A DNA stretch of 64,000 nucleotides from Lachnospiraceae bacterium 10-1 (GTDB lineage: Bacteria > Bacillota > Clostridia > Lachnospirales > Lachnospiraceae), in contig KE159817.1 in NCBI GenBank assembly GCA_000403495.2, forward strand, positions 120,288-184,287, written 5' to 3'. This document shows positions 10,476 through 32,660 of this stretch, piece after piece. Made by a program: the position numbers and the translations under genes. How positions within the stretch are numbered: the first letter of the stretch is position 1; each line of letters opens with the position of its first letter. The notes below the pieces were generated by a model that was given only the letters and a program-made list of their open reading frames with translations, did no database searches and was not told the origin of the DNA.

Positions 10476-10558
10476 CTGAAATGAAAAGCAGACAAGACAA
10501 ATCAAAATTAAATATGTTATACTAATTCATATATTATATGTCCAGAGGAGTGATTAAA

Positions 10559-11782
10559 ATGTATAATCTAATGAATAAAAATAGTAAAATTGCTGTTTTT
10601 GAGAAATCAAAAGATCAACTGGATAATAGTTTTGTAATGATTCATGAAACTGAAGAAAAACTGCCAATTGGTTTTCGGGATATTAATTCATGGCTGGACA
10701 GGCGGCAGGCAGCAAAACACAGGGAGCATTTAAGACAGCTTATGGCCCAATGTGGATGTTTAAATAGTGAAGGGTTTATCAAAATAACACATGCCACTTC
10801 TTTGAATGATACTTTTTGGGTAAAATCCGAAAATGAAAATGCTACATGGGAAACAGTTTCTTTGTATAGAAATGAATTCAATGAAGTTATCTCAAAAATA
10901 TCCTTTGAAGGAACTGGTTTATTTGGAATTGACTTTTCAACTACAACACCTGAATTCAGCACAGAGGGGAGTTTTGAGAAATGCTGGAAAAGGGAGGAAA
11001 ATGGTATTTATCTTTATAAGCGCGGCAGTATGGGTGCACGTAATGCCGGATTAGAACCTTATTCCGAAGTTTATGCCTGTCAGATTGGAAAGATTCTCTG
11101 CAAGAACTTTGTTGATTACAGTTTAACCACACTTCACAAAAGAACAGCATCCAAATGTGAACTATTTACAAATGAAGAGAATGGTTTTATACCTCTTTCT
11201 AACATTTTCCAGCGCCGCGTGACGCCCAGGGAAATGCTTGAGTATTATAGCAGCATTGGTTCCGAGGATGCATTTCGAAGAATGGTAGTATTTGATGCAG
11301 TTACCTTTAATACAGACCGTCATATGGGAAATCATGGAGTAATTTTTGATAATGATTCTCTTACTGTTAAATGTATGGCTCCGGTTTTTGATAATAACCA
11401 ATCATTATTACCTTATGCGGAAGAGCAGGATTTTCAGCAGGTAGGGAGTTATGTAGAGAGTAAAATTCCACATATTGGTGAGGATTTTGTAAATATTGCA
11501 AAGGCAGTTATGTCTCCGGCTATAAGAAGTGATTTAATAAATTTACATGGATTTAAATTTTCTTATATTGATAGTGACAGATTTTCAAAAGAAAGATTAT
11601 ATACCATTGAAAAGATCATAAACACACAAATAAGCGGGATATTGGATAAAAATAAAATGTATACTGTAGAAGTATTTCCTAAACAGGAGTCTGTTTTAAG
11701 TAAACTGCATAATTATCAGGGGCAGATAAGCCTATCTCGAACTGAAAATTTAACAGAAAAAAAGATTCAAATTGAAAAATAG
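10559..11782 (+). CDS. HipA-like protein kinase domain protein
   Basis: This 407-residue protein has HipA_C-type kinase motifs: an ATP-binding-like stretch (YLYKRGSMGARN), the catalytic loop NTDRHMGNHG (about residues 251-260, with D253 and N258) and a metal-binding FDNNQS (D278). HipA-family kinases phosphorylate protein targets such as GltX in toxin-antitoxin systems. No HipB-like antitoxin gene adjoins it, so it may instead be a lone CtkA-type kinase or an element regulator. The ATG at 10559 follows GAGGAGTG. A terminator lies just downstream. Confidence 0.65.
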   Translation: MYNLMNKNSKIAVFEKSKDQLDNSFVMIHETEEKLPIGFRDINSWLDRRQAAKHREHLRQLMAQCGCLNSEGFIKITHATSLNDTFWVKSENENATWETVSLYRNEFNEVISKISFEGTGLFGIDFSTTTPEFSTEGSFEKCWKREENGIYLYKRGSMGARNAGLEPYSEVYACQIGKILCKNFVDYSLTTLHKRTASKCELFTNEENGFIPLSNIFQRRVTPREMLEYYSSIGSEDAFRRMVVFDAVTFNTDRHMGNHGVIFDNDSLTVKCMAPVFDNNQSLLPYAEEQDFQQVGSYVESKIPHIGEDFVNIAKAVMSPAIRSDLINLHGFKFSYIDSDRFSKERLYTIEKIINTQISGILDKNKMYTVEVFPKQESVLSKLHNYQGQISLSRTENLTEKKIQIEK

Positions 11783-11825: not shown

Positions 11826-11848
11826 TAAAGGAAAAGGAGATTGTTATT

Positions 11849-12169
11849 ATGAGTAAAATTTTAATAGTAGCAGAAAAACCAGCAGCCGGTAAAGACATCG
11901 CAAGAATATTAGGAGCTACAGAATCCAGCAACGGCTATATGGAAAATGAAGAATATATTGTAACATGGGCAATCGGACATCTGATAGGATTAAAAGATCC
12001 GGAGGAAATAGATGAAAAATTTAAGATATGGAATGTGGATGACCTTCCGCTTCCCTATGATAATGGGCTCAAGGTTCTTGCAGGAACAAAGGGACAATAT
12101 AAGATTGTCAAGAGCCTGATCCAGCGTGACGATATCAGTTATTTAATTAACGCCGGTGATGTTGGATAG
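11849..12169 (+). pseudogene. topB: DNA topoisomerase III, N-terminal fragment, split by insertion
   Basis: Codes for the first 104 residues of a type IA topoisomerase (MSKILIVAEKPAAGKDIARI, TOPRIM start) and reads two codons into an inserted element before a stop. The frame breaks inside LINAGD|AGREG, the conserved TOPRIM acidic motif. The other half is at 19,182-20,945. Joining 12,159 to 19,184 restores an uninterrupted 690-residue protein. ICE-encoded TopB probably relaxes transferring or replicating DNA. The fragment lacks the catalytic Tyr and should be inactive. Confidence 0.93.
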
Positions 12170-12183
12170 TGCGGAGGGGTGAC
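12158..12183. repeat. Left attachment site and terminal inverted repeat of the nested element
   Basis: The core GA is at 12158-12159 and the arm TGTTGGATAGT at 12160-12170. Partial symmetry continues through GGGGTGAC. It mirrors 19158-19183. Confidence 0.88.
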
Positions 12184-12306
12184 AAACAAATACAAATAAA
12201 AAAGGGACTTCCTCAATCCTTAAAAGGCTATGACAATAACGGTTATAGCTTTTTTTCATGCGGTAATTACCGTAAGAAATAACCCCTTATTCCAACAAGC
12301 GGAGAA

Positions 12307-12486
12307 ATGCCCAACAACAGTATTCCGCAATCCAATCTCCCGACAATTAACGAAAGAAAACCATATATCAGCACCGAAACCAATCAATCTTATCAAACCA
12401 TATCACAGGAGGGCAAAGACCATGAACAAAAAGCAGGAACAGCAGATTTTAGATTATTACAGCACCACAGACAAATATATCCGTAG
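12307..12486 (+). CDS. Possible small ORF, 59 residues
   Basis: It starts MPNNSIPQSNLPTINERKP after GCGGAG and overlaps the next gene by 65 bp in another frame. Composition is Asn/Gln/Ser-rich and no family was recognised. It could equally be non-coding leader: 12,170-12,421 holds no other credible gene. Confidence 0.3.
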   Translation: MPNNSIPQSNLPTINERKPYISTETNQSYQTISQEGKDHEQKAGTADFRLLQHHRQIYP

Positions 12487-13030
12487 CAAGACACATTCCA
12501 ATGCGCATCAGACTGTATTTACCAAAGAAAGCGACAAATACCAGTGGCTTGTGTTGGAGCAGAAAAGCCAGTGCGAAGTTGAGGTAAGGCAAACCGACAG
12601 TCATGGAACAATCACAGCAAGGGATAATTACGAACTGACAAGAAATATCCCTAAGTGCGTGGGCGTGGAGCGTTTATGTGAGGGCGCAAATTTTCAGATA
12701 CCTTTTAACGCTGATGAAGTCAATCTGATTTATCAGTTTGGGGAACAGAGCAAAGCGGAAACGTGTGCCAGTCTGTCCGCTATTCTTCCGCAGATAAAGG
12801 ACAGCGACACAAAGCAGATAGTAAGCGGCACATTGAAGAAATTAAATGCCCTGTCCGAAGAAACGAGTGCGGAACTGACCGCCACCACCAAAAGACGGAA
12901 ACTGACCGAGCGTGACAACTCCATAAAGACAAGGTTAGCCAAAGCAAAGGAACAGGCGAAACAGCCGACAGTTGCCGAGGGAAAACTGCACAGAACCCAC
13001 AGCAAAGGAAAGGGGGATATGGCGCTATGA
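12422..13030 (+). CDS. Conserved hypothetical protein of mobilizable elements
   Basis: This is a 202-residue soluble, charged protein starting at ATG 12422 after AGGAGGGC. Its C-terminal third is Lys/Arg-rich helix (KRRKLTERDNSIKTRLAKAKEQ). Similar proteins accompany serine-recombinase mobilizable elements in gut Clostridia (recalled, not searched). It overlaps the next gene by ATGA. Function unknown. Confidence 0.55.
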   Translation: MNKKQEQQILDYYSTTDKYIRSKTHSNAHQTVFTKESDKYQWLVLEQKSQCEVEVRQTDSHGTITARDNYELTRNIPKCVGVERLCEGANFQIPFNADEVNLIYQFGEQSKAETCASLSAILPQIKDSDTKQIVSGTLKKLNALSEETSAELTATTKRRKLTERDNSIKTRLAKAKEQAKQPTVAEGKLHRTHSKGKGDMAL

Positions 13031-13308
13031 AACTTTCACGATACGAGCAGGAAACGATTGTCAATTATAACGCAGGAGAACAGACCGCCACCCTCTACAC
13101 AAGAGATAAAGCAGTCATGCGGAAACTTGACACACTTGTTGCCGATTATCCCGACACATACAAGCTGACAGGGCAGGACGAGGTATCTAAGACCTATTCC
13201 TTTCCGAAGTCACACGTCAGTTACCGAAAGCCGAGGACAGTCAGCACCGAGCAGAGGGAACGGGCAAGGCAGATGATGATTGCTAATAATAGGGCAAAGA
13301 AAGATTAA
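13027..13308 (+). CDS. Conserved small protein coupled to the upstream gene
   Basis: This 93-residue protein starts at an ATGA overlap with the preceding stop, so the pair is translationally coupled. The N-terminal half is beta-like (VNYNAGEQTATLYTRDKAVM) and the C-terminus basic (QRERARQMMIANNRAKK). The pattern is recurrent in Tn4451-like and IME modules, but no function is known to me. Confidence 0.55.
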   Translation: MKLSRYEQETIVNYNAGEQTATLYTRDKAVMRKLDTLVADYPDTYKLTGQDEVSKTYSFPKSHVSYRKPRTVSTEQRERARQMMIANNRAKKD

Positions 13309-13406
13309 GGAAAATTTATTGGTATTGTGTATGTGTTTGTGGTAAAATTGTGACGTTGAGCAACTCAATAATCGGGATTTATGATAAGGAAAGGGATAAT
13401 TGTAAA

Positions 13407-13658
13407 ATGAATGCGGATAATGAATTACTAATAAATTTGGATAAATTGCACACAACGGAATTAGGCGTAGAGCGCATTAAAAGAAATCTATCTTTAGATA
13501 CAGATGATGTGGTTGACTGGTGTAAAACTAAAATCAATTCCGATAATGCTGTCATTACCCGAAATGGAAAAAACTGGTATGTGAATGTAGACAATTATAT
13601 TTTAACGGTAAATGCATATAGTTACACGATTATAACGGCACATAAGGAAAAGAAATGA
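13407..13658 (+). CDS. DUF3781 family protein
   Basis: This 83-residue protein contains LDKLHTTELGVERIKRNL, DVVDWCKTKI and VITRNGKNWYV, the hallmark segments of DUF3781. ATG 13407 is preferred because it follows a purine-rich AAGGGATAA. It overlaps the next gene by 4 bp. DUF3781 genes are commonly cargo beside GyrI-like or regulator genes; the biochemical role is unknown. Confidence 0.75.
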   Translation: MNADNELLINLDKLHTTELGVERIKRNLSLDTDDVVDWCKTKINSDNAVITRNGKNWYVNVDNYILTVNAYSYTIITAHKEKK

Positions 13659-14122
13659 AATATACAATTCGTGAATTAGAAACATTTTCAGTTATTGGGC
13701 AGGAAGTAGAACTCACCAATTATCAAAAAAGAAACATTCAAATCAGTACACAATTTTGGCGAAAGTTTAACAGTAATTTGAAGAAATCGTATCTTTCACA
13801 ATCGGGAAACTGGATAAAATATGCCTTTATGGAAAGAAGAAATGAGAAACTATTTTATTTCTGTTCTATTCCAAAAAGGAATGTCGTTCCAAATAATTTT
13901 GTCTATAAAGAAATACAACATTACAAATATCTTGTTGTAGAGCATATAGGTTCTATGGACAAAATATATGAAACCTACGGAATGATTTATCAAGAAATAT
14001 TACCCCAAATGGAATATATACCTTTACAAGAAAACTTTTTACACTTTGAAAAATACGATTATCGCTTTCATTGGAATAAGGAAAATTCTATTATTGAAAT
14101 ATGGCTACCAATTAAGGGGTAG
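13655..14122 (+). CDS. GyrI-like / effector-binding domain protein
   Basis: This 155-residue protein has the SOUL/GyrI-like small-molecule-binding fold pattern: VIGQEVELTNYQ at the start, KYLVVEHIGSMDKIYETYG in the middle and FEKYDYRFHWNKENSIIEIWLPI at the end. Such stand-alone domains bind hydrophobic effectors or cyclic-nucleotide-like ligands. No DNA-binding domain is fused. It is coupled to the DUF3781 gene by an overlap and followed by a terminator. Confidence 0.7.
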   Translation: MKYTIRELETFSVIGQEVELTNYQKRNIQISTQFWRKFNSNLKKSYLSQSGNWIKYAFMERRNEKLFYFCSIPKRNVVPNNFVYKEIQHYKYLVVEHIGSMDKIYETYGMIYQEILPQMEYIPLQENFLHFEKYDYRFHWNKENSIIEIWLPIKG

Positions 14123-14191
14123 TTAAATTCTTATTTGTCAGGAAAAATCAAGACAGAAAAATGATGTAAAAACTGAATATTGTTTACCTTT

Positions 14192-14232
14192 AGGTAGCGA
14201 TTATCTTAACAGACAATCCGCTACCTTTTTTA
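14192..14232 (+). terminator. Rho-independent terminator
   Basis: AGGTAGCG (14192-14199) pairs with CGCTACCT (14219-14226), followed by TTTTTAT. It closes the small cargo operon. Confidence 0.8.
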
Positions 14233-14278
14233 TTTTCAGAACCTATCAACACAGCACAGAAAGAATGAGGTATCAGAA

Positions 14279-14620
14279 ATGATTGAGAGCAAGAATGATA
14301 CAAGCAAAAACTTAGAAAAAGCATTGCAGGCATTGAAACAGGCGCAACAGCGTGTAGCCAACGAGAAGAAAAAGCAGAACGAGAAAAAGCGAAAAGCTGA
14401 GAACCACCACAAGTATATCATGGGCGGTATTATCGTAAAGTATTTCCCCGACTGCTACCGCTATGACGAGGACGAGTTAAACCGTATCTTGTCGGTTGCA
14501 TTGCAGACAAAGGAATGTCAGCAGATTATATCTAAAATCAAAGCGGAAAGCCGAGAAACCACTCCCCCACAACCTACTCTCCCCAATGCCGAAAATGAAA
14601 GCGAGGGCGGTACGGAATGA
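14279..14620 (+). CDS. Small charged protein upstream of the relaxase, DUF3847-like
   Basis: This 113-residue protein has an N-terminal coiled coil rich in Lys/Gln/Ala (KALQALKQAQQRVANEKKKQ), then GGIIVKYFPDCYRYDEDELNR. Composition and position just before a MobA/MobL gene resemble DUF3847 proteins, possible relaxosome accessory factors. No GGAGG is seen just before the ATG; AAGAATGAGG lies a little upstream. Function is inferred from context only. Confidence 0.5.
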   Translation: MIESKNDTSKNLEKALQALKQAQQRVANEKKKQNEKKRKAENHHKYIMGGIIVKYFPDCYRYDEDELNRILSVALQTKECQQIISKIKAESRETTPPQPTLPNAENESEGGTE

Positions 14621-14658
14621 CGAGGGCAACGGAACTGGAAAGCCGAGGTAACGTATTC

Positions 14659-14864
14659 ACCCCGTTTACGGGGTGCGCACAGATATACCACCAGAGGTGG
14701 TATGTGCGCTCTCCGAGGGGCAAGTTTCACTTGCATGGACTCCTGCGGAGGGCGTTGGCTGCCTTGCGGCAGCCAAAAGGGGAAACAACAATTCCCCTTC
14801 GCAAGCTGCGCTTGCTACCCTTTAGTGAACTTTGCGTTCAGACAAAAGCCAAAGTACGGCTTTT
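14659..14864. other. Array of perfect hairpins before the relaxase gene; candidate oriT
   Basis: Within 206 bp there are consecutive perfect inverted repeats: 14659-14674 (ACCCCG), 14675-14709 (GCGCAC outer, ATACCACC inner), 14720-14734 (GCAAG), 14740-14750 (CTCC), 14755-14776 (TTGGCTGCC), 14777-14799 (AAGGGGAA), 14801-14815 (GCAAGC) and 14844-14864 (AAAAGCC). Open frames here are unconvincing. The position directly upstream of the mobilization gene suggests an origin of transfer. Confidence 0.7.
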
Positions 14865-14926
14865 ATCTGCCCACAAAGTCTATCCATGCGCCCCACTACT
14901 CTATTGGCAGAATGTAGGTGTTGCGT

Positions 14927-16501
14927 ATGGGTAATGTCACGAAACAGGCAAGCACACGTTTCTCCATAGTCAAGCGGAGCAAAGGGCAGTCGGCAGTTGA
15001 GAAAGCATCATACATCAGCAGGAGTATTCTTGTGAGCGAATATGACGGACAGACCTACCGCCCCAAATACCATGAAGATTTAGTCCACAGTGAAATCTCT
15101 CTCCCACCCAATGCACCCAAAGAATATGCAGACCGAGCCACCTTATGGAACGCTGTTGAACTGTCAGAGAAAGGGCAGAAATCACAGCTTGCGAGAATGC
15201 TGAAAGCGTCACTCCCCAACGATTGGAGTTATGAACTTGCGGAGGAAGTCGTGAGGGATTATGTGCAGAGGAATTTTGTTGACAAGGGAATGTGTGCGGA
15301 TTGGGCAATCCATGACAGCGAGAATGACAAAGGACAGCGCAATCTCCATATCCATGTTTTACTAACCATGCGCCCTATCACTGAAAACGGAGAATGGGGA
15401 GCAAAGACCAAAAAGGTTTATGTCCTTGATGAAAACGGGGAGCGTGTTCCCCTCATCGACAAAAAGACAGGTCAGCAGAAAGTGGATAATCGCAACCGCA
15501 AACAGTGGAAATGTCAGACCGTAGAAAGCACCGACTGGAACAGCCAAGAGAACGCCAAGATGTGGCGCAAAGATTTAGCCGACACAATCAATGCCACCAA
15601 TGAGCAGTTGGGTATTGACGTTCATTGGGAACACCGTTCTTTCAGGGAACAGGGGATAGATAAAGAACCGACAATCCATATCGGGGCGACTGCCAATGCT
15701 TTAGAGCGCAAGGGCATACAGACCGAGAGGGGAAACATCAATCGGGAAATCGTCAAGCGCAACATGATGTTGGAGCAGGCAAAGGCAATGCTTGAACTTG
15801 CCAAGCAGGAAGTACAGAGCATACAGTATGCCAAGATTAGAAATGCGGCAGTCAGCATGAAGAATGATGTCATGGAAATGATTGCAAAAGTGAGGGAACG
15901 AAAAGGCAGACTTGATTTGCCGATTGTCAGCGGAAAGCACCTAAGAAAAATATCCGACAGAACCGCCTTGCAGTCAGCCGACAATGCAGAGAAGTTTATC
16001 GCTACAAAGAAGATAGACAGCTTTGAGAGCCTTGCAAAATTTACAGCAGATACGGAACAGAAATACGGACAGCTTGACAGCGTACATCTATCAAAGGGGC
16101 AGAAACTAAGCCGACTAAAGGAACTGTCAAAAATGTATGCCCTCTATGAGCCATACCGCACCACCTACAAAGAGAGCCAGTCACTAAAAAGACTTGCCAA
16201 AATGAAGTTTGACAGGGAGCATAAAGAGAGCCTTGCCAAATATCCCGAAATGCGTGAGCGGTTGCAGAACCTTTTGGAACAGGGCGAGAAGATAACGCCG
16301 AAACAGTGGAAAGCGGAAATACAATCTTTACAAGCGGAATATGACAGTATCGGCAGGGAGAAATCAAAGACCGCCACAGAATTAGCTTATGCCGAGGTAA
16401 TCAGCTATAACAAAAAGAACCTTGAACGGGAACTTCAGAACGAGAGCCGACAGCATAACAAACAACAGAGCAAGGCGAAACGGAGGGAGGAAGAAATTTA
16501 A
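14927..16501 (+). CDS. MobA/MobL family relaxase
   Basis: Likely the nicking enzyme that mobilizes the nested element with a helper's secretion system. The N-terminal domain (about residues 1-260) has the MobA/MobL pattern, including the metal-binding NLHIHVLLTMRP (H141, H143). The rest is long helical, Lys/Glu-rich sequence, including an alanine/lysine coiled coil. Start ATG 14927 follows GTAGGTG; GTG 14918 is an alternative. The hairpin array upstream is the probable substrate. At 524 residues it is within the usual range of the family. Confidence 0.85.
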   Translation: MGNVTKQASTRFSIVKRSKGQSAVEKASYISRSILVSEYDGQTYRPKYHEDLVHSEISLPPNAPKEYADRATLWNAVELSEKGQKSQLARMLKASLPNDWSYELAEEVVRDYVQRNFVDKGMCADWAIHDSENDKGQRNLHIHVLLTMRPITENGEWGAKTKKVYVLDENGERVPLIDKKTGQQKVDNRNRKQWKCQTVESTDWNSQENAKMWRKDLADTINATNEQLGIDVHWEHRSFREQGIDKEPTIHIGATANALERKGIQTERGNINREIVKRNMMLEQAKAMLELAKQEVQSIQYAKIRNAAVSMKNDVMEMIAKVRERKGRLDLPIVSGKHLRKISDRTALQSADNAEKFIATKKIDSFESLAKFTADTEQKYGQLDSVHLSKGQKLSRLKELSKMYALYEPYRTTYKESQSLKRLAKMKFDREHKESLAKYPEMRERLQNLLEQGEKITPKQWKAEIQSLQAEYDSIGREKSKTATELAYAEVISYNKKNLERELQNESRQHNKQQSKAKRREEEI

Positions 16502-16688
16502 TGGAAATTTGATAGAGAAATAAATGTGAGTATGGTATTATAGTAGCTGTACAAGTTGGGAAATGTAGGATTCTATAAAGTGATTTTATATTTCTACCAC
16601 TGGTTGCGCAAATGTAAAAGTAGCTATATGGAATGCAACCGAGGTTTTTGGTATGGTCTAGGTATCAAAAACAAGGAGGAAAAATAAT

Positions 16689-17138
16689 ATGAATTTTTCA
16701 GAAAAACTTTTAACACTACGAAAGGCTAAAGACCTTACGCAAGAACAGCTTGCGGAGAAACTTGATGTTTCAAGGCAATCTGTTTCAAAATGGGAAAGCG
16801 GGCAGGCAACCCCTGATTTGGAAAAGATAGTGGAAATAAGCGCAATTTTTGATGTTACAACTGATTATTTGTTAAAGTCATCAGAGATAGATGATTTATC
16901 AGTGAAAACTGAAATGTTGGAAAAACAACAGCAGATGATGCTTCTTCGGGAACAAAAAAATCAAAGAACCTTTGAGTGTGTAATGTATTCGGTTGCAGTA
17001 TATCTCATTTTTTTTGCGGTCTATTTCATCGGACATTATTATTTTGAAATTTGGAATCCGTCAGTGATTTTTGCGGAATTTCTTATTGCTACTGCCATTG
17101 TAATCTTTATATGTGTTAAAAAACGTAGTAAAAAGTAG
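16689..17138 (+). CDS. XRE-family regulator with two membrane segments
   Basis: This 149-residue protein has an N-terminal helix-turn-helix ([20 protein letters not shown], about residues 17-36). A short coiled coil follows, then two membrane helices (about residues 97-116 and 123-142). Membrane-tethered XRE regulators are common in Clostridia and may sense envelope state. It stands alone between relaxase and recombinase genes and starts after AAGGAGGAAAA. Targets unknown. Confidence 0.8.
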
Positions 17139-17206
17139 TAGTAAAGTTCCAACCTGCCGCTAACCATTACCACACTACAATCACAACAAAATAATTACAC
17201 AGCGTC

Positions 17207-17241
17207 AGAGCGTATAGAATCAGTCTATGCGCTCTATTTTT
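17207..17241 (+). terminator. Rho-independent terminator
   Basis: AGAGCGTATAGA (17207-17218) and TCTATGCGCTCT form a stem with a single G·T-type mismatch, followed by ATTTTTAT. Confidence 0.75.
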
Positions 17242-17259
17242 ATGTAAAGGAGTAGATTT

Positions 17260-17433
17260 ATGAGTAAAAATATTGAAACAGAGCAAAGAACCCACCGACA
17301 GCAGACACCCACAAAAATTATCGTGGAAAGGCACTATGTAGGCACTGAAAAAATGGAAACGGTATTTAAGCGGATAGCCGAGGAACAGATAACAAAAAAG
17401 GTCAAAGAAATAGCGGAAAATAAAGCCAATTAG
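17260..17433 (+). CDS. TnpW-like small protein upstream of the recombinase
   Basis: This 57-residue protein starts at ATG 17260 after AAAGGAG. The pattern KIIVERHYVGTEKMETVFKR..EEQITKKVKEI matches small TnpW-family proteins encoded just upstream of large resolvases in Tn4451-like elements. It may modulate the recombinase; that role is not established here. It is short but well placed and has a good ribosome-binding site. Confidence 0.7.
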   Translation: MSKNIETEQRTHRQQTPTKIIVERHYVGTEKMETVFKRIAEEQITKKVKEIAENKAN

Positions 17434-17505
17434 CACTGGAAACGGAAAAGGGAATATAGTATAATATGAGTTGAGAGGAAGTCCCTTTTCATCAAGGAGG
17501 ACGAA

Positions 17506-19143
17506 ATGAAAAGGGCAAAATTAAATAACGACAAAATCACTGCTTTATATTGCAGGCTTTCCAAAGATGACGGCACGAACAATGAGAGCATGAGCATAGG
17601 CACACAGAAAACCATGCTGAAAGAATATGCAAAGCGCAACGGTTTTCTTAACTGTCAGTTCTATGTTGATGACGGTTACAGCGGTACGAACTATGACCGT
17701 CCTGCCTTCCAACAGCTTATTGAGGACATACGCAACGGGGAAATATCAACGCTCATCACAAAAGACCTGTCACGTCTGGGGAGGAATTACCTTGAAACGG
17801 GTACATATATCGAGGTATTTTTCCCCAACCACAATGTACGCTACATTGCAGTCAATGACGGTGTAGACTCCATAGATAACACGCAAATGGATATTACACC
17901 GTTCCGCAACATCATCAATGAAATGTACGCAAAGGACACGTCAAGGAAAATCAAGAGCGCACTCCGAACAAGGAAATTGCAAGGGAAGTATATGGCAACT
18001 ACACCGCCTTTCGGGTATCGGAAAGACGAGAGCGACCATAACCACCTTGTCATTGACGAAGTGACAGCACCCGTTGTGGAACTGATTTTTTCGATAGCCG
18101 AGGAGGGCGTGGGACTTCACACTATTTGTAACCGCTTGCGTAAGGCAAAAGTTATGAAACCGAGTTTCTACAAAAAGGAACTGTTTGAGAGGTACATTGA
18201 CGAGGAAAAGATGTATGATTGGGATACTGCTTATATCAGCAAGATATTACACGATCCAGTCTATGCAGGAAACCTTATCGTGGCGGAAAGACCGACCAAG
18301 ACCATGCGTTCCAAGAAAAGACAGTATATCCCGTTTGCAGAGCGTGAAGTCATCTATGGCACACATGAGCCAATCATTGAACAGAACCGCTGGAACAATG
18401 TGCAGAAGATTTTGCAGAGCAGACCGCCCGTTATCGGGGAAAGTTCAAGCGGATATGACAACATCTTCCGAGGGATTATCAAATGTGCCGATTGTGGGAG
18501 TGCCATGCTTGCCAAAGTGGAACAGAAAAGAAAGCGGAACAATGTAATAGACAAGACTTTCTACTGCTGTACCAAATACCGCAAGTTCGGGAAAGAGGGC
18601 TGTTCGTCACACAACATTGAGGCGAGGACGGTGCATGAAGTTGTGCTTGCAGACATTCAAAGACACGCACAGCAGGCATTGACGGACAGGAAAGCAATGG
18701 TAACGGATATTGCCGAGCGTCTTAATCTCCAACTGTCAGCGGACAAGGAACAGCAGAAAAAGGAACTTAGACAATGCAAGCAGCGAGTGTCGGAAATAGA
18801 AAACCTGTATGCCAAGCTGTACGAGGACATGACAAGGGAACTGATAACGGAAAAGCGTTTTCAGATGTTGTCGGCACGATATGACAGTGAGCAGGAAGAA
18901 CTGTCAGCAAGGATAAAGGAACTTGAAAAAAGTGCCATAGAGGACAGGGAGCAGTTATCTTCCATTGAGCAGTTTGCGGAGCAGATAAGCGGTTATGCAG
19001 GGATAACAGAACTCAATTTTAAAATAATCAATCAACTCATAGAAAAAATTCTTGTTTCTGAACCCGTAGAGATAGACGGGCAGAAAATTCAACGACTTAC
19101 TATCCATTACAAGTTCATAGGGGCATTGGAAACCCTTGAATAA
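17506..19143 (+). CDS. Large serine recombinase of the nested element (TndX/TnpX type)
   Basis: This 545-residue site-specific recombinase probably excises and inserts the nested element at GA dinucleotides. The resolvase domain (about residues 10-150) has the catalytic Ser19 in LYCRLSKDD, then GYSGTNYDRPAFQQL and LITKDLSRLGRNYLETG. The recombinase domain spans about 160-290. A zinc ribbon (CADCGSAML ... FYCCTKYRKF) and a coiled coil (about 395-480) follow. AAGGAGGACG precedes the ATG. The gene ends 40 bp from the right attachment site. Confidence 0.93.
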   Translation: MKRAKLNNDKITALYCRLSKDDGTNNESMSIGTQKTMLKEYAKRNGFLNCQFYVDDGYSGTNYDRPAFQQLIEDIRNGEISTLITKDLSRLGRNYLETGTYIEVFFPNHNVRYIAVNDGVDSIDNTQMDITPFRNIINEMYAKDTSRKIKSALRTRKLQGKYMATTPPFGYRKDESDHNHLVIDEVTAPVVELIFSIAEEGVGLHTICNRLRKAKVMKPSFYKKELFERYIDEEKMYDWDTAYISKILHDPVYAGNLIVAERPTKTMRSKKRQYIPFAEREVIYGTHEPIIEQNRWNNVQKILQSRPPVIGESSSGYDNIFRGIIKCADCGSAMLAKVEQKRKRNNVIDKTFYCCTKYRKFGKEGCSSHNIEARTVHEVVLADIQRHAQQALTDRKAMVTDIAERLNLQLSADKEQQKKELRQCKQRVSEIENLYAKLYEDMTRELITEKRFQMLSARYDSEQEELSARIKELEKSAIEDREQLSSIEQFAEQISGYAGITELNFKIINQLIEKILVSEPVEIDGQKIQRLTIHYKFIGALETLE

Positions 19144-19157
19144 TGGATATTTTCTAA

Positions 19158-19185
19158 GTCACCTATTCCAACTATCCAACAGATG
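19158..19185. repeat. Right attachment site and terminal inverted repeat of the nested element
   Basis: The arm ACTATCCAACA is at 19171-19181 and the GA core at 19182-19183. Inward sequence GTCACC mirrors GGTGAC at the left end. The topB frame resumes immediately. Confidence 0.88.
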
Positions 19186-20945
19186 CAGGAAGGGAAGGGC
19201 TTTTAATCCAGTCTTGGCTATACAGGATGTGCAGCAATAAACATCCTGTAAAAATACTTTGGGCTTCTTCCCTTACGGACGAAGCTATAAAAACTGCAAT
19301 GGGACATCTTCATGATGAAAAAGAAGAAGAGTTTGTGAATCTGCTCAGGGAAGCAGAAACAAGAGCAGTGGCCGATCAGATTTATGGATATAATTATACC
19401 AGGGCGTTAACATGTCTTTACGGTTCATCCGGAACGGTTTTATCGTATGGACGCTGCCAGACTCCGTTGCTTAACCTTATTTATAAAAGAGATCTGGAGA
19501 TAGAAAAATTTAAACCGCAGCCATACTGGACACTGAACGCCGAATTTAACAGTTTCACCGCAAGTGAAATTGGTGATAATGGAGAAGTTCTGAAATATAT
19601 GGAAAAGGCATCTGCAGATGCAGCCTTTCAGAGCTGCAGCAGATCCGGCCAGGTAAAAGTATGCAAAAAGGAACAGAAAAGCCAGAAGGCGCCTGCATTA
19701 TTTAATTTGGCAGAAATACAAAATACTATGGGCAAAAAATATGGTTTAAAGCCGGATGAAACGCTTGAAATTGCCCAAAAACTATATGAAACATATAAGA
19801 TCATGTCTTACCCAAGAACTGACAGCAGGTACCTGTCAACAGATCTGTATAACGAAATAGAGCAGCACGTTAAATCATGCAGTTTTGGCAAATTTGAAAG
19901 CTACATAGAAAAAATTGATTTTTCTTCTTTTACTATGGATAAATCATATTTTAACAATAATAAGGTTTCTGACCATCATGCATTAATTCCCACCATTAAC
20001 AGCAGCATAGCTGATGTATATGACAAATTGTCAGAAATGGAAAAGAATTTCTTTGATGAAATTGTATGCAGCCTGATTGCCATTTTTTATCCGCCTTACA
20101 TCTATGAAAGTACCGATATTATAATAGAGGTATCGGACCGAACTTTTCAGGCACATGGAAATGTAGTAAAGTCTGCCGGATATAAGGAGACCATGAATAT
20201 CCTGCAGACAAAAGAAAAGGATAAAGATGATCAGCAACCGCTTCCGGATCTGACAGAAGGAGAGATTCTTGAAGTGACAAACCTTGAACTTAAGGAAGGA
20301 AAAACAAAACCTAAAGCAAGGTATAATCCCGGTAATATTGTAAAGCTGATGAACAAATATAAAATTGGAACTTCGGCCACCAGTGCAAATATTGTTAAGA
20401 CACTGGAAAAGCGAAATTTTATTGAGCTGGATGAAAAGAAAAAGTATAAGACTACAGCTCTGGGCAGGGAATTTATATCCCTTGTTCCGGATATCCTTAA
20501 GTCAAAAAATCTGACAATCGAATTTGAAGATTCGCTTGCAAAAGTCAATTCCGGAGAACTTTCAAAGGAACAATTTATTGAAAAAATTATTATACAGATT
20601 AAAGGGAACATAGATAAGTTTAAAGAGAATGCTCCTGAAAAGAAGATGAGCGCCCAAAAAAGTGTCGGGGTATGTCCGGTATGCGGAAAGGAAATGAGGG
20701 AAAGCAGCAAATCATGGTACTGTTCCGGATATGCAGATGAATCTAAATGCAGCTTTTCCATCTGGAAGAAGATCTGCGGAAAAAATATTCCTGAAGCTTC
20801 CATAAAAACTTTACTTGCCTATGGAAAATCAGATCTGCTTAAAGGCTTCAAAAGTTCACAGGGGAACAGCTTTAGTGCATATCTTGTATTAAAGAAAGAT
20901 CATTCAATTGGATTTGAGTTTCCAAGCCGAAAAAATAAAAAGTAA
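19182..20945 (+). pseudogene. topB: DNA topoisomerase III, C-terminal fragment, split by insertion
   Basis: From 19,182 the frame reads DAGREGLLIQSWLYRM, continuing the TOPRIM motif broken at 12,160. It includes the catalytic tyrosine motif (SYPRTDSRYL), a type IA core and a C-terminal zinc finger (VCPVCGKEM ... WYCSGYADESKC). No ribosome-binding site serves it; the first in-frame Met is at 19,227, inside the domain. It is probably silent while the insert is present. The gene is otherwise intact, consistent with recent or reversible disruption. Confidence 0.92.
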
Positions 20946-20953
20946 ATGACTGA

Positions 20954-20990
20954 CCGGAAGTGGAAAAATTTCTGCTTCCGGATTTTTTAT
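20954..20990 (+). terminator. Rho-independent terminator after topB
   Basis: CCGGAAG (20954-20960) and CTTCCGG (20975-20981) form a 7-bp stem, followed by ATTTTTTATT. Confidence 0.8.
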
Positions 20991-21008
20991 TATGGGAGGA
21001 TTTCATTA

Positions 21009-21350
21009 ATGGCTGAAAGGTTAAGAGACGAACAGATTGCATTCAGAGTTTCAAATTTTGAAAAAGATTTAATTCAGCACCAATATAAAGAGTCAGGAAT
21101 CGAATCGTTCAGAGAGTTTGCAGTAAGGCTGTTATCAGATGGATATATACTTAATATTGATACAACACAGATACACAGCTATGCATATGAAGTGAATAAA
21201 ATTGGAGTCAATCTGAATCAAATCGCACATAAAATAAATATGCTGGACAAAGAAAATCCTGATATTTATTTGTTAAAAAAGGACATGGAAGAATGTCTTT
21301 TTTTAATGAATGAACTGACTAAAATTGTACGCAGGCATTGGATGTCTTAA
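21009..21350 (+). CDS. MobC-like relaxosome accessory protein
   Basis: This 113-residue protein starts at ATG 21009 after GGGAGG. An N-terminal RHH-like segment (IAFRVSNFEKDLIQHQYKES) is followed by the MobC signature (YEVNKIGVNLNQIAHKINM). MobC proteins bind oriT and help the relaxase open DNA. The relaxase gene starts 24 bp downstream. Confidence 0.85.
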   Translation: MAERLRDEQIAFRVSNFEKDLIQHQYKESGIESFREFAVRLLSDGYILNIDTTQIHSYAYEVNKIGVNLNQIAHKINMLDKENPDIYLLKKDMEECLFLMNELTKIVRRHWMS

Positions 21351-21373
21351 ACTACTATGGGAGGTAAAAACAT

Positions 21374-22813
21374 ATGGCTGTGTCAAAAATATGGCCACTG
21401 TATCAGACACTTGATAAGGCAGTTAAATACATCTGCAATTATGAAAAAACAGCAGATGGAACATTAATAGATACATTCCAGTGTACAGAAAAATTTGCTG
21501 ATTGTGAATTTAATGATACAGCAAAAAAAGCCAGGAAAGTTAAAAATTCCAGAATAGGATATCATACAATAATCTCATTTTCGCCGGATGATGTTATTTC
21601 ACCAGAAGATGCATTAAAGGTTGGTAAGCAGATTATTGATAAATACACAGGCGGAAAACATCAATATGTGCTTACTGTACACACGGATCAGGCACACATA
21701 CATGTGCACTGTATTTTCAATTCTGTTGATTACACTGACTTTAAAAAGCTGCAGATCAAAGACAAGGATCTTGACCGTCTTGAAAAAATAACTGATAAAG
21801 TATGCCGGGAAAATAATCTGTCAGTTATTGAAAAGAAATCCGGCGAAAAAGGACGCAAAAAATATGAATATGATAAGCATACAGCAGGTGAGTCATGGAA
21901 GGATAAAGTTAAAAACGCAATTGATAAAAATATTTTATTGTCCAATACCTACGAGGAATTTATTGAGCGGATGCAAATGGAAGAAGGATATCAAATTAAG
22001 CAGGGAAAGTATCTTTCGTTTACACTTGAACATGAAGGTCAAAAGAAAGCTGTGCGGAATAGAAGCCTTGGAGATTTTTATTCTATAGATTCCATAAAAG
22101 ACAGAATTAAAAATAAAGAAAAATATGCACAGAAAGAAAAAGCAGTTAGTACAAAAACTTTACCAGACAGCATTAAATTTGACAAGCCAATTTCTTATGA
22201 TGCCAATGTGAAAAAGCTGATTGATGTTAATAAAAATAAGAAAGCACAAGAACATCAGGCATACCGCAGAAAATTAAATATGATAAATATTTCAACCTAT
22301 GCCGGCATGATAAACTTTATAAAAAAATACCATCTTGTATATGCAGATGATTTTGAAAATGCGAAAAATAATTTAGAGCAAATGTATTCACAGCTTACTG
22401 ATTCGATCAAAGATACTTACAGAGATTTAAATGCTCTTGAGGCAAATATAAAACAGTATCAAAAATATTTGAATAATAAATCTGCGCATGAACGTTATAT
22501 AAGGACATCTGATAAAGATGAAAAATTTTTCCTTAGTGAGGCTAATAAGATGTATGAAAGTGCAATGTATTATTTTAAGAAAAATAATATAGATATATCC
22601 CAAATAACGCCTGAAACTGTTTCGAAAAAAATGATGAAAATGGATAATCTAAACCAAAGATTAGATCAGTTAAAAGTAGAGAGAAAATCTGTAAAAAATG
22701 ATGTTAAACAACTGACAATTATTGCTGACAATAATCGTTCTGTTTTGGGTGATGAATTTAAAAGCACCTCCAAACATCAAGAAAAAAAAGATATCTATGA
22801 TAGAAATAAATGA
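21374..22813 (+). CDS. ICE relaxase, MOBP / relaxase-mobilization nuclease family
   Basis: This 479-residue protein nicks the ICE at oriT and leads the strand into the recipient. The N-terminal nuclease domain contains the metal triad QAHIHVHCIFNSVD (H108, H110, H112). A conserved start (YICNYEKTADGTLI) is typical of clostridial relaxases. The C-terminal half is helical coiled coil. GGGAGG lies upstream of the ATG. It pairs with MobC and is followed by a strong terminator and a hairpin array. Confidence 0.9.
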   Translation: MAVSKIWPLYQTLDKAVKYICNYEKTADGTLIDTFQCTEKFADCEFNDTAKKARKVKNSRIGYHTIISFSPDDVISPEDALKVGKQIIDKYTGGKHQYVLTVHTDQAHIHVHCIFNSVDYTDFKKLQIKDKDLDRLEKITDKVCRENNLSVIEKKSGEKGRKKYEYDKHTAGESWKDKVKNAIDKNILLSNTYEEFIERMQMEEGYQIKQGKYLSFTLEHEGQKKAVRNRSLGDFYSIDSIKDRIKNKEKYAQKEKAVSTKTLPDSIKFDKPISYDANVKKLIDVNKNKKAQEHQAYRRKLNMINISTYAGMINFIKKYHLVYADDFENAKNNLEQMYSQLTDSIKDTYRDLNALEANIKQYQKYLNNKSAHERYIRTSDKDEKFFLSEANKMYESAMYYFKKNNIDISQITPETVSKKMMKMDNLNQRLDQLKVERKSVKNDVKQLTIIADNNRSVLGDEFKSTSKHQEKKDIYDRNK

Positions 22814-31119: not shown

Positions 31120-31139
31120 TAATGCCGGAGAAGGTTGTA

Positions 31140-32660
31140 ATGATGGAAGAATTTCGTATAGACGCATTGTATGTAAGGCAGTCTATAGATAAAAAAGACA
31201 GTATATCCATAGAAAGCCAATTAGATTTTTGCAAATATGAAACAAGAGGCGGAGCCTGTGAAGAATATGTGGACAGGGGGTTCAGTGGAAAGAACACGAA
31301 CAGACCGGCTTTTGAGCAAATGATGAAGGCGGTTGAGGGTGGAAAGATTAAGAGGGTTATCGTATATAAGCTGGACAGAATAAGTCGTTCCATCCTTGAT
31401 TTTGCAAATATGATGGAAACATTTCAAAAATACAATGTGGAATTTGTTTCATCTACTGAAAAATTTGATACATCTACTCCAATTGGCAGGGCCATGCTGA
31501 ATATTTGTATTGTATTTGCACAATTGGAAAGAGAAACAATCCAAAAACGTGTAAGCGACGCATATTATTCCAGAAGCCAGAAAGGGTTTTACATGGGCGG
31601 AAGAGTGCCTTATGGTTTTAAATTAGAAAAAACCATAATTGAAGGAATACATACTTCCCGTTTTGTACCAGATGATTTTAAAGCACTGCAGGTGAAAAAA
31701 ATGTTTCAATGGTATACAGAAGCAGATACTTCGCTGGGAGAAATTCAAAGACGACTGTGTGCTGAATCTACAGATGGCGTGGTTAAAAATTGGTGTACAG
31801 CAAGAATCAGCGAAATTTTAAGGAATCCTATCTATGTAAAAGCAGATATGGATATTTATAATTTTTTCAAATTACAGGGAGCAATTCTTGTAAACCCTCC
31901 GTCTGAGTATATTGGGATGAATGGAGCCTTTCTGTATAAAGGGAGAAATGCAGACGGAACCAAGAAAAAGCAATATGATCTTGTAGGACGAGAAGTAGTT
32001 CTGGCACCTCATGCAGGTATTATAGATTCTGCTACATGGCTGCGCTGTCGGTTAAAATTGATAAATAATCGCCAGGCAGCAAGGACAAATAAAGCAAAAC
32101 GAACATGGCTTGCAGGAAAAATGAAATGCAAAAAATGTGGATATGCATATGTGACAATTAAAAATATCAACGGTATGCGATATTTTCAGTGTTCAGGTGC
32201 GCGTTATGCAATTAAATGCGCTGGTATTGGAAAAACAATATATGCAGATCAGATGGAAGAATATATATATAGTGAAATGCAGTCAATGCTCGCTAAACTT
32301 GAATATCTTTCACCAGAAAAAAGCAACCAAAATAATTCTGTGGTCGTGCCTTACCAGATTGAAATAGCTGATAAAGATAAAGAAATCGAACTGTTACTGG
32401 ATAAACTTGCTTTTGCCAATCCCACACTGGTTGATTATATTAATAAGAGGATAAAAAAATTGGATGAGGACAAAAAAGCACTTTCTGAAAAAATAATGCA
32501 AATATCATCTTCAAATCCAGAAAAAAATATAGAAAAAATAACAAGCTATATTGATAAGTGGGATGTTATCAGTATTGATGATAAGCAAAAGATTGTAGAC
32601 ATATTGATAAAAGTAATATATATTGGAGAAGAGGCAATTGAAATAGAGTGGAATATATAG
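31140..32660 (+). CDS. Large serine recombinase of the ICE
   Basis: This 506-residue integrase has catalytic Ser15 in LYVRQSIDKKD. It also has GFSGKNTNRPAFEQM, a VYKLDRISRS segment, a recombinase domain (KGFYMGGRVPYGF onward), a zinc ribbon (MKCKKCGYAYV ... YFQCSG) and a C-terminal coiled coil. GGAGAAGG supports ATG 31140; 31122 is an upstream alternative. It ends 25 bp before the junction with cotJC and so most likely placed the ICE there. Confidence 0.92.
   Translation: MMEEFRIDALYVRQSIDKKDSISIESQLDFCKYETRGGACEEYVDRGFSGKNTNRPAFEQMMKAVEGGKIKRVIVYKLDRISRSILDFANMMETFQKYNVEFVSSTEKFDTSTPIGRAMLNICIVFAQLERETIQKRVSDAYYSRSQKGFYMGGRVPYGFKLEKTIIEGIHTSRFVPDDFKALQVKKMFQWYTEADTSLGEIQRRLCAESTDGVVKNWCTARISEILRNPIYVKADMDIYNFFKLQGAILVNPPSEYIGMNGAFLYKGRNADGTKKKQYDLVGREVVLAPHAGIIDSATWLRCRLKLINNRQAARTNKAKRTWLAGKMKCKKCGYAYVTIKNINGMRYFQCSGARYAIKCAGIGKTIYADQMEEYIYSEMQSMLAKLEYLSPEKSNQNNSVVVPYQIEIADKDKEIELLLDKLAFANPTLVDYINKRIKKLDEDKKALSEKIMQISSSNPEKNIEKITSYIDKWDVISIDDKQKIVDILIKVIYIGEEAIEIEWNI

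Follow-up and report, generated by a model that had tools for sequence, protein, structure and literature searches.

An integrative and mobilizable element in the TOPRIM codons of topB of a Lachnospiraceae integrative and conjugative element

Nested mobilizable elements and their targets

Integrative and mobilizable elements (IMEs) with serine integrases are described in the traG, maff2 and snf2 genes of integrative and conjugative elements (ICEs) of the Tn5252 superfamily, with a proposed model whereby they excise on conjugation (PMC5357655). In S. suis, IMEs are found in SNF2 and PPI genes and in the COG4646, membrane-protein and traG genes of Tn1549 (PMC7168690). The element considered here, from Lachnospiraceae bacterium 10-1, is located in the topoisomerase gene topB of an ICE, within a stretch of 64,000 nucleotides termed the window (G000:C18:120288-184287, in a genome of 4.57 Mb). 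Like the IMEs of Tn5252-superfamily ICEs it has its own relaxase and sits in and disrupts a conserved ICE gene (PMC5357655), and like those of S. suis, which also occur in Tn1549-type ICEs, it is nested (PMC7168690). Both groups differ from it in their targets, and the word 'topoisomerase' occurs 0 times in the accessible text of either article. The preferred reading, to which a probability of about 0.86 is given, is that a 7-kb IME with a TnpX-related recombinase has integrated in an ICE topB by reading mainly the DAGREG right half-site.

Other elements share some properties with the window IME. IME_Rho_tet is found in gut bacteria, has a serine recombinase and is directed to a single conserved gene across 48 clusters, but that gene is MAFF2 and the element carries tet genes (PMC12904643). 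Tn4451, with its recombinase TnpX, and Tn6104 have a large serine recombinase and a 2-bp target, which is GA in Tn4451; Tn6104 lies in the traG gene of an ICE, from which it excises; Tn4451 differs from the window IME in its many sites and its MobV relaxase (PMC5704250, PMC3158075). Kinship with TnpX had been proposed in an initial annotation of this DNA, and the best solved match of the window recombinase is indeed TnpX (PDB 2mhc, a 120-aa fragment, E 2e-38). The crossover dinucleotide is GA here as well; the relaxase, however, is of the MobA/MobL instead of the MobV type, and site specificity is not low, with 35 of 50 readable right junctions at one motif.

The closest published case is HLGR_IME of Streptococcus dysgalactiae, which lies in an ICE gene called 'topA', a predicted topoisomerase III, and is found in several hosts; its authors state that a topoisomerase-gene site was so far unreported for such IMEs (PMC13214566, 2026). 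It resembles the window IME in having a MobA/L relaxase and a serine integrase, and its junction repeats are ACTGA/ACAGA (PMC13214566). Insertion of the window's family would yield the same five bases at some topB genes; in L029, for instance, the left flank ends in ACTGA and the right end of the element is ACAGA. A Citrobacter freundii plasmid locus, L199, matches HLGR_IME in gene lengths and in the kinds of resistance genes and appears to be a copy of it. Judged on L199, HLGR_IME shares neither the insertion site nor a closely related recombinase with the window IME. The L199 recombinase is 33% identical to that of the window and is encoded at the opposite end of the element, and the window's arms are absent. 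The element lies between topoisomerase pieces that match residues 14-494 and 501-617 of an intact relative (L098), far downstream of a TOPRIM motif that is whole, and therefore at another site of the gene. L199 2620-11460 is thus a MobA/MobL serine-recombinase IME at a second, C-terminal site of a topoisomerase gene, and mobile elements may be hit repeatedly in genes of this kind. Among the literature matches listed there is no IME at the TOPRIM codons; these matches include PMC9092696, PMC6907783 and PMC8138268 in their accessible parts; supplements (e.g. FirmiData's table) and subscription journals fall outside this scope.

Anatomy of the insertion

The features that define the insertion are as follows.

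11849..12159, +, N-terminal part of the host-ICE topB, up to the GA of the Asp codon (Pfam Toprim E 6e-5; junction)
12160..19183, +, IME, left arm through right-hand GA, 7,024 bp in all (junctions, empty sites of relatives)
12160..12170, +, left terminal arm TGTTGGATAGT (junction sequence)
19171..19181, +, right terminal arm ACTATCCAACA (junction sequence)
19182..20945, +, C-terminal part of the host-ICE topB, from the GAT of DAGREG (Pfam Topoisom_bac E 4e-101)

The left junction reads GCCGGTGA followed directly by TGTTGGATAGT, and the right junction ACTATCCAACA followed by GATGCAGG. The topB frame is broken by the insert and enters it as a 106-aa open reading frame (ORF) that closes at 12169, three codons inside; it restarts at 19182 with GAT, the same Asp codon of the TOPRIM motif DAGREG. 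The arms are perfect 11-bp inverted repeats with GA on the outer side of each. The initial annotation had described the break in DAGREG, the restart at 19,182 and a crossover at GA, and all three hold, the topB of a relative being continuous at this point. The perfect arms it reported are present in the window but are not universal: they differ by one base in 5 of the 28 elements for which both ends were located (26 including the window, with L095 and L097 added). In an alignment with E. coli topoisomerase III, the disrupted Asp falls on residue 103, an acidic catalytic residue of that enzyme.

In 28/28 two-ended elements the topB frame continues into the insert as D-V-G-stop, although the left-end search pattern already fixes most of the bases behind this result. 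On the right side, 49 of 52 junctions (37 in topB, 15 not) have no usual start codon in the stretch that leads from the last in-frame stop to topB or the other target; the exceptions, L039, L040 and L042, are all of the Faecalibacterium lineage. In the window the first usual start codon of the C-terminal part is at 19227, downstream of DAGREG. Since the upstream frame stops after three codons and the remainder has no start before the motif, the topoisomerase should be null as long as the IME is in place.

Empty sites in relatives

The element has defined ends, and its exact empty site is found in a genome of the same genus (L098, in G398). There topB is open over 699 aa, and its C-terminal part is 92% identical to that of the window. 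Window positions 11831-12161 correspond to L098 3588-3258 and positions 19182-22440 to L098 3261-4, so that the flanks abut with a 4-base overlap. In a comparison of 22 two-ended topB insertions with 22 topB loci, 18 insertions have a relative with an uninterrupted topB in which the two flanks adjoin without any gap, eleven of them with both flanks at least 79% identical and seven at 64-76%, where some alignments are shorter than 100 nt. One such pair is formed by the occupied L029 and the empty L105, whose topB sequences are 100% identical over 184 and 802 nt. The initial annotation would have been contradicted had the flanks joined to one intact topB in no relative; for these 18 insertions they do join.

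Repeated insertion at one codon

A recombinase search of genome contigs gave 75 loci from the best 80 of 120 matches. With the window included, the right junction is readable in 50 of 76 loci, the other 26 being cut contigs or distant recombinases. Thirty-five of these junctions begin at the GA of D[A/S]GREG and 15 lie elsewhere; the junctions were sorted by this motif, and hits elsewhere within a topB would fall among the 15. The main target is topB, but it is not the sole one. Likewise, the initial annotation would have been contradicted by close relatives with the insert at a different site, and here both outcomes are seen, the same codon in 35/50 and other sites in 15/50.

When the C-terminal topB parts of these 35 loci are grouped by identity, 17 clusters result at 90% and four at 70%. 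Three further distinct topB insertions were found beyond these (L097, L123 and a second copy in the genome of the window), together with two further sites outside topB, L120 and L122, which bring that class to 17. The second copy in the same genome, of 7,892 bp and with a 93% identical recombinase, sits in the same codon of another topB that is only 33% identical. Some loci carry two labels (L117 = L033, L119 = L048, L124 = L032). Twenty genomes with the family contain 25 right ends, 20 in topB and five not, mostly the same insertions as before; in one of the twenty, G764, which carries the Faecalibacterium lineage, the right-end pattern is not matched exactly.

Among the 29 topB-sited recombinases of the 35 that are full length, 34 pairs are at least 98% identical, and in 29 of these pairs the topB parts are only 30-74% identical at the protein level; in the other five they are at least 75% identical, one of these pairs (L021/L022) being cut by a contig end. 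Near-identical recombinases in such different genes indicate that the site was chosen repeatedly. L007 and L009 have identical recombinases and topB genes without nucleotide alignment. The elements L007, L009, L011, L029 and L095, each of 7,892 bp, lie in different topB genes. These findings sustain the earlier suggestion that many ICEs with a topB are open to attack. Targeting of topB extends to recombinases of 61-63% identity (Faecalibacterium, two of three readable). In 30 loci with distant recombinases (27 at about 33-48% identity, with L060, L068 and L096), the available flanks have no match to three intact TopBs (tblastn, E 1e-5). A plasmid element with a 36.5% identical recombinase (L198) was set aside as a TnpV/TnpW-type element.

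The junction-plus-motif pattern is present in 4/397 genomes of the taxonomic family and the right end in 4/37 genomes of the genus, at five places, four in topB, and in 2/392 genomes of the order, that of the window included. Carriers include Lachnospiraceae bacteria, Acetatifactor muris, Eubacterium plexicaudatum and others, and many of these strains are presumably mouse-gut isolates.

What the recombinase appears to read

The consensus of the right half-site, GA-Y-GC-N-GG-N-MG-N-GA-R-GG, is that of the DAGREG codons. The 15 right flanks outside topB score high on a matrix made from topB sites when compared with 18,166 GA positions (Mann-Whitney p 3e-6; median background fraction 0.07), and G is present at +3 in 15 of the 17 sites outside topB (binomial p 7e-8 against one in four). 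The recombinases at these sites share 93 to 99.9% identity with those located in topB, which suggests that the same enzymes use them as secondary sites. L120 and L122 are close mimics of the topB codons at the DNA level.

A second type of topB has DSGREGEYIY and T at +3. It was seen at 21 loci from 21 genomes of the genus, hand-picked from search matches, and also in the genome of the window (L003); because of this spread it is presumed to be the chromosomal gene. This type is found at 0 of the 35 occupied sites and at none of the three later topB insertions; the occupied site of L040 reads DSGREGELIF. Either recognition or selection may explain why the presumed chromosomal topB is not occupied. 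At the wobble position, GAG is present at 29 of 34 unique occupied sites vs 16 of 37 intact sites of mixed type, a difference confounded by base composition that offers weak hints at best.

A tentative idea, which we would not yet favour, is that evolution has shaped the recombinase to recognise the invariant codons for the catalytic site of mobile-element TopB, with carriers across unrelated ICE families and escape only at wobble positions. The Ala codon GCN vs the Ser codon TCN, the latter without G at +3, would then exempt the topB of the cell, and the IME would act as a selective and reversible ICE off-switch.

Life cycle and alternative explanations

The recombinase crosses over at GA and seems to read mainly the right half-site. 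As the DAGREG codons are nearly invariant, topB genes of very different ICEs are targets. If it behaves like TnpX elements and follows the model published for nested IMEs of ICEs, the IME would leave as a circle with topB restored, travel through the ICE mating pore by means of its own relaxase and reintegrate in a topB of the recipient.

Several results weigh against the preferred reading. Fifteen of the 50 junctions lie outside topB, and on the topB matrix the right flanks of three of these loci (L025, L028 and L049) do not rise above background; the six left flanks tested are without clear signal. Because the search patterns for the ends prescribe the GA and most bases of the arms, the uniformity of the ends is partly built in; in an unfiltered listing of right flanks, arm and GA are present in 49 of 75 loci. 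Four of the 22 two-ended insertions (L007, L018, L027, L043) have no matching intact relative among the 22 topB loci. Finally, a circle or tandem junction was not found in viral contigs, the collected recombinase loci or the 20 genomes. The initial annotation held that topB is knocked out until the element excises, and the anatomy fits the first half of this statement, whereas excision was not seen in those same sequences.

The missing circle junction would also be expected if the insertion is real and the element is now a decayed passenger that no longer moves; in addition, L053 and L058 have no relaxase match, and L058 no recombinase match either. However, the recombinase and relaxase frames of the window are open, its arms are perfect, and elements of the same 7,892 bp are present in different topB genes, which makes decay very unlikely.

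Also very unlikely is low-specificity, TnpX-like transposition to any GA, topB being over-represented because an ICE can bear such insertions and carries them along as it spreads. The 15 junctions outside topB, made by recombinases nearly identical to topB-sited ones, are in its favour, as is the listing of Tn4451 with numerous GA sites (PMC5704250 Table 1). But tolerance predicts scatter over topB, and all 35 topB hits are at one codon, even though the classing used that motif; furthermore, near-identical recombinases lie in very different topB genes, and the sites outside topB resemble the motif. One old insertion in an ancestral topB, passed down with ICEs, fits the close kinship of some occupied genes (17 clusters from 35) but is refuted by the divergent topB genes of L007 and L009, which have identical recombinases, and by topB genes that are almost identical to occupied ones and yet empty, as is L105 beside L029.

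With integration by reading the DAGREG half-site as the preferred explanation, the element is of a known kind, with well-supported anatomy and specificity and an inferred life cycle; what is new is the active-site target and its breadth. Published nested IMEs mostly target genes peculiar to one ICE superfamily. Here the active-site motif is common to very different ICE TopBs, so that one recombinase reaches many carriers, and a parasite of mobile DNA would gain them through one conserved sequence. The logic of the target is akin to that of homing endonucleases and inteins in conserved active sites. This raises questions that can now be tested: whether an ICE needs its topB for transfer, whether mating triggers excision and whether the codon difference shields the chromosomal topB. 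IME insertion also accounts for a class of topB genes annotated as truncated.

Genes and cargo of the element

All eight genes of the IME are on the + strand (frequencies refer to the 28 two-ended elements).

12419..13030, +, TTRAP protein, putative transposon-transfer assisting (Pfam PF14203 E 3e-15; 28/28)
13027..13308, +, 93-aa protein without family (28/28)
13350..14122, +, cargo slot 1, DUF3781 and GyrI-like proteins (among the 27 other elements, in L053 only)
14279..14620, +, DUF3847-like protein (E 7e-4, under the Pfam cut-off; 28/28)
14918..16501, +, MobA/MobL (MobQ-like) relaxase (Pfam PF03389 E 9e-72; NCBIfam MobQ 196 bits vs a cut-off of 200; 26/28)
16689..17138, +, cargo slot 2, Xre-type helix-turn-helix regulator (different genes at this slot in relatives)
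17506..19143, +, large serine recombinase with Resolvase, Recombinase, zinc ribbon and DUF4368 domains (27/28)

The DUF3847-like protein is perhaps a relaxase accessory. No mating-pore family scores above cut-off among the eight proteins, and the element thus has the make-up of an IME, with its own recombinase and relaxase and without mating-pore genes. Together with the split topB frame and the ICE genes around it, this agrees with the original description as an IME within an ICE.

The two cargo slots are variable among the 28 elements. Ten cargo proteins of relatives were scanned; the GNAT, methyltransferase, CNNM/CorC, PadR, DUF6144 and streptomycin-adenylyltransferase families are represented, and four of the ten are without family. 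The streptomycin-adenylyltransferase family gene is in cargo slot 1 of two topB-sited IMEs, L021, by Pfam, and L022, by the same ORF start. The element of L019, 9,483 bp in length, has the same ORFs on both strands of cargo slot 1, which suggests the entry of two insertion-sequence copies in opposite orientations.

Host ICE and neighbouring DNA

Around the window topB are genes for an M23 peptidase, a CD1107-like protein, a NikA/MobC-like protein and a relaxase, the last two directly downstream.

20946..22813, +, host-ICE genes for a NikA/MobC-like protein and a Pfam PF03432 relaxase (protein family scan)

At 13 other topB-sited loci, 20 of the 41 listed flanking ORFs were scanned for families. 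Relaxase, TraG P-loop, CD1107-like, CHAP or M23/NlpC families are near the occupied topB at eight of the 13 loci; the scanned proteins of L011, L015, L032, L039 and L050 include none of these ICE families, and two of the 20 scanned proteins are without family.

Just upstream of topB, a HipA-like gene (10538-11782, in the segment 10482-11830) is missing from the otherwise collinear L098, where the flanks abut; by this comparison the segment is a separate small insertion or deletion. A second large serine recombinase, at 31122-32660, lies ahead of chromosomal-looking genes (feoB from 34097, hydrogenase, gltX) and is perhaps the integrase of the host ICE itself. The whole genome has 44 places that match large serine recombinases, with three matches side by side at C1:810841-815687, C20:222687-227762 and C21:210049-214923.

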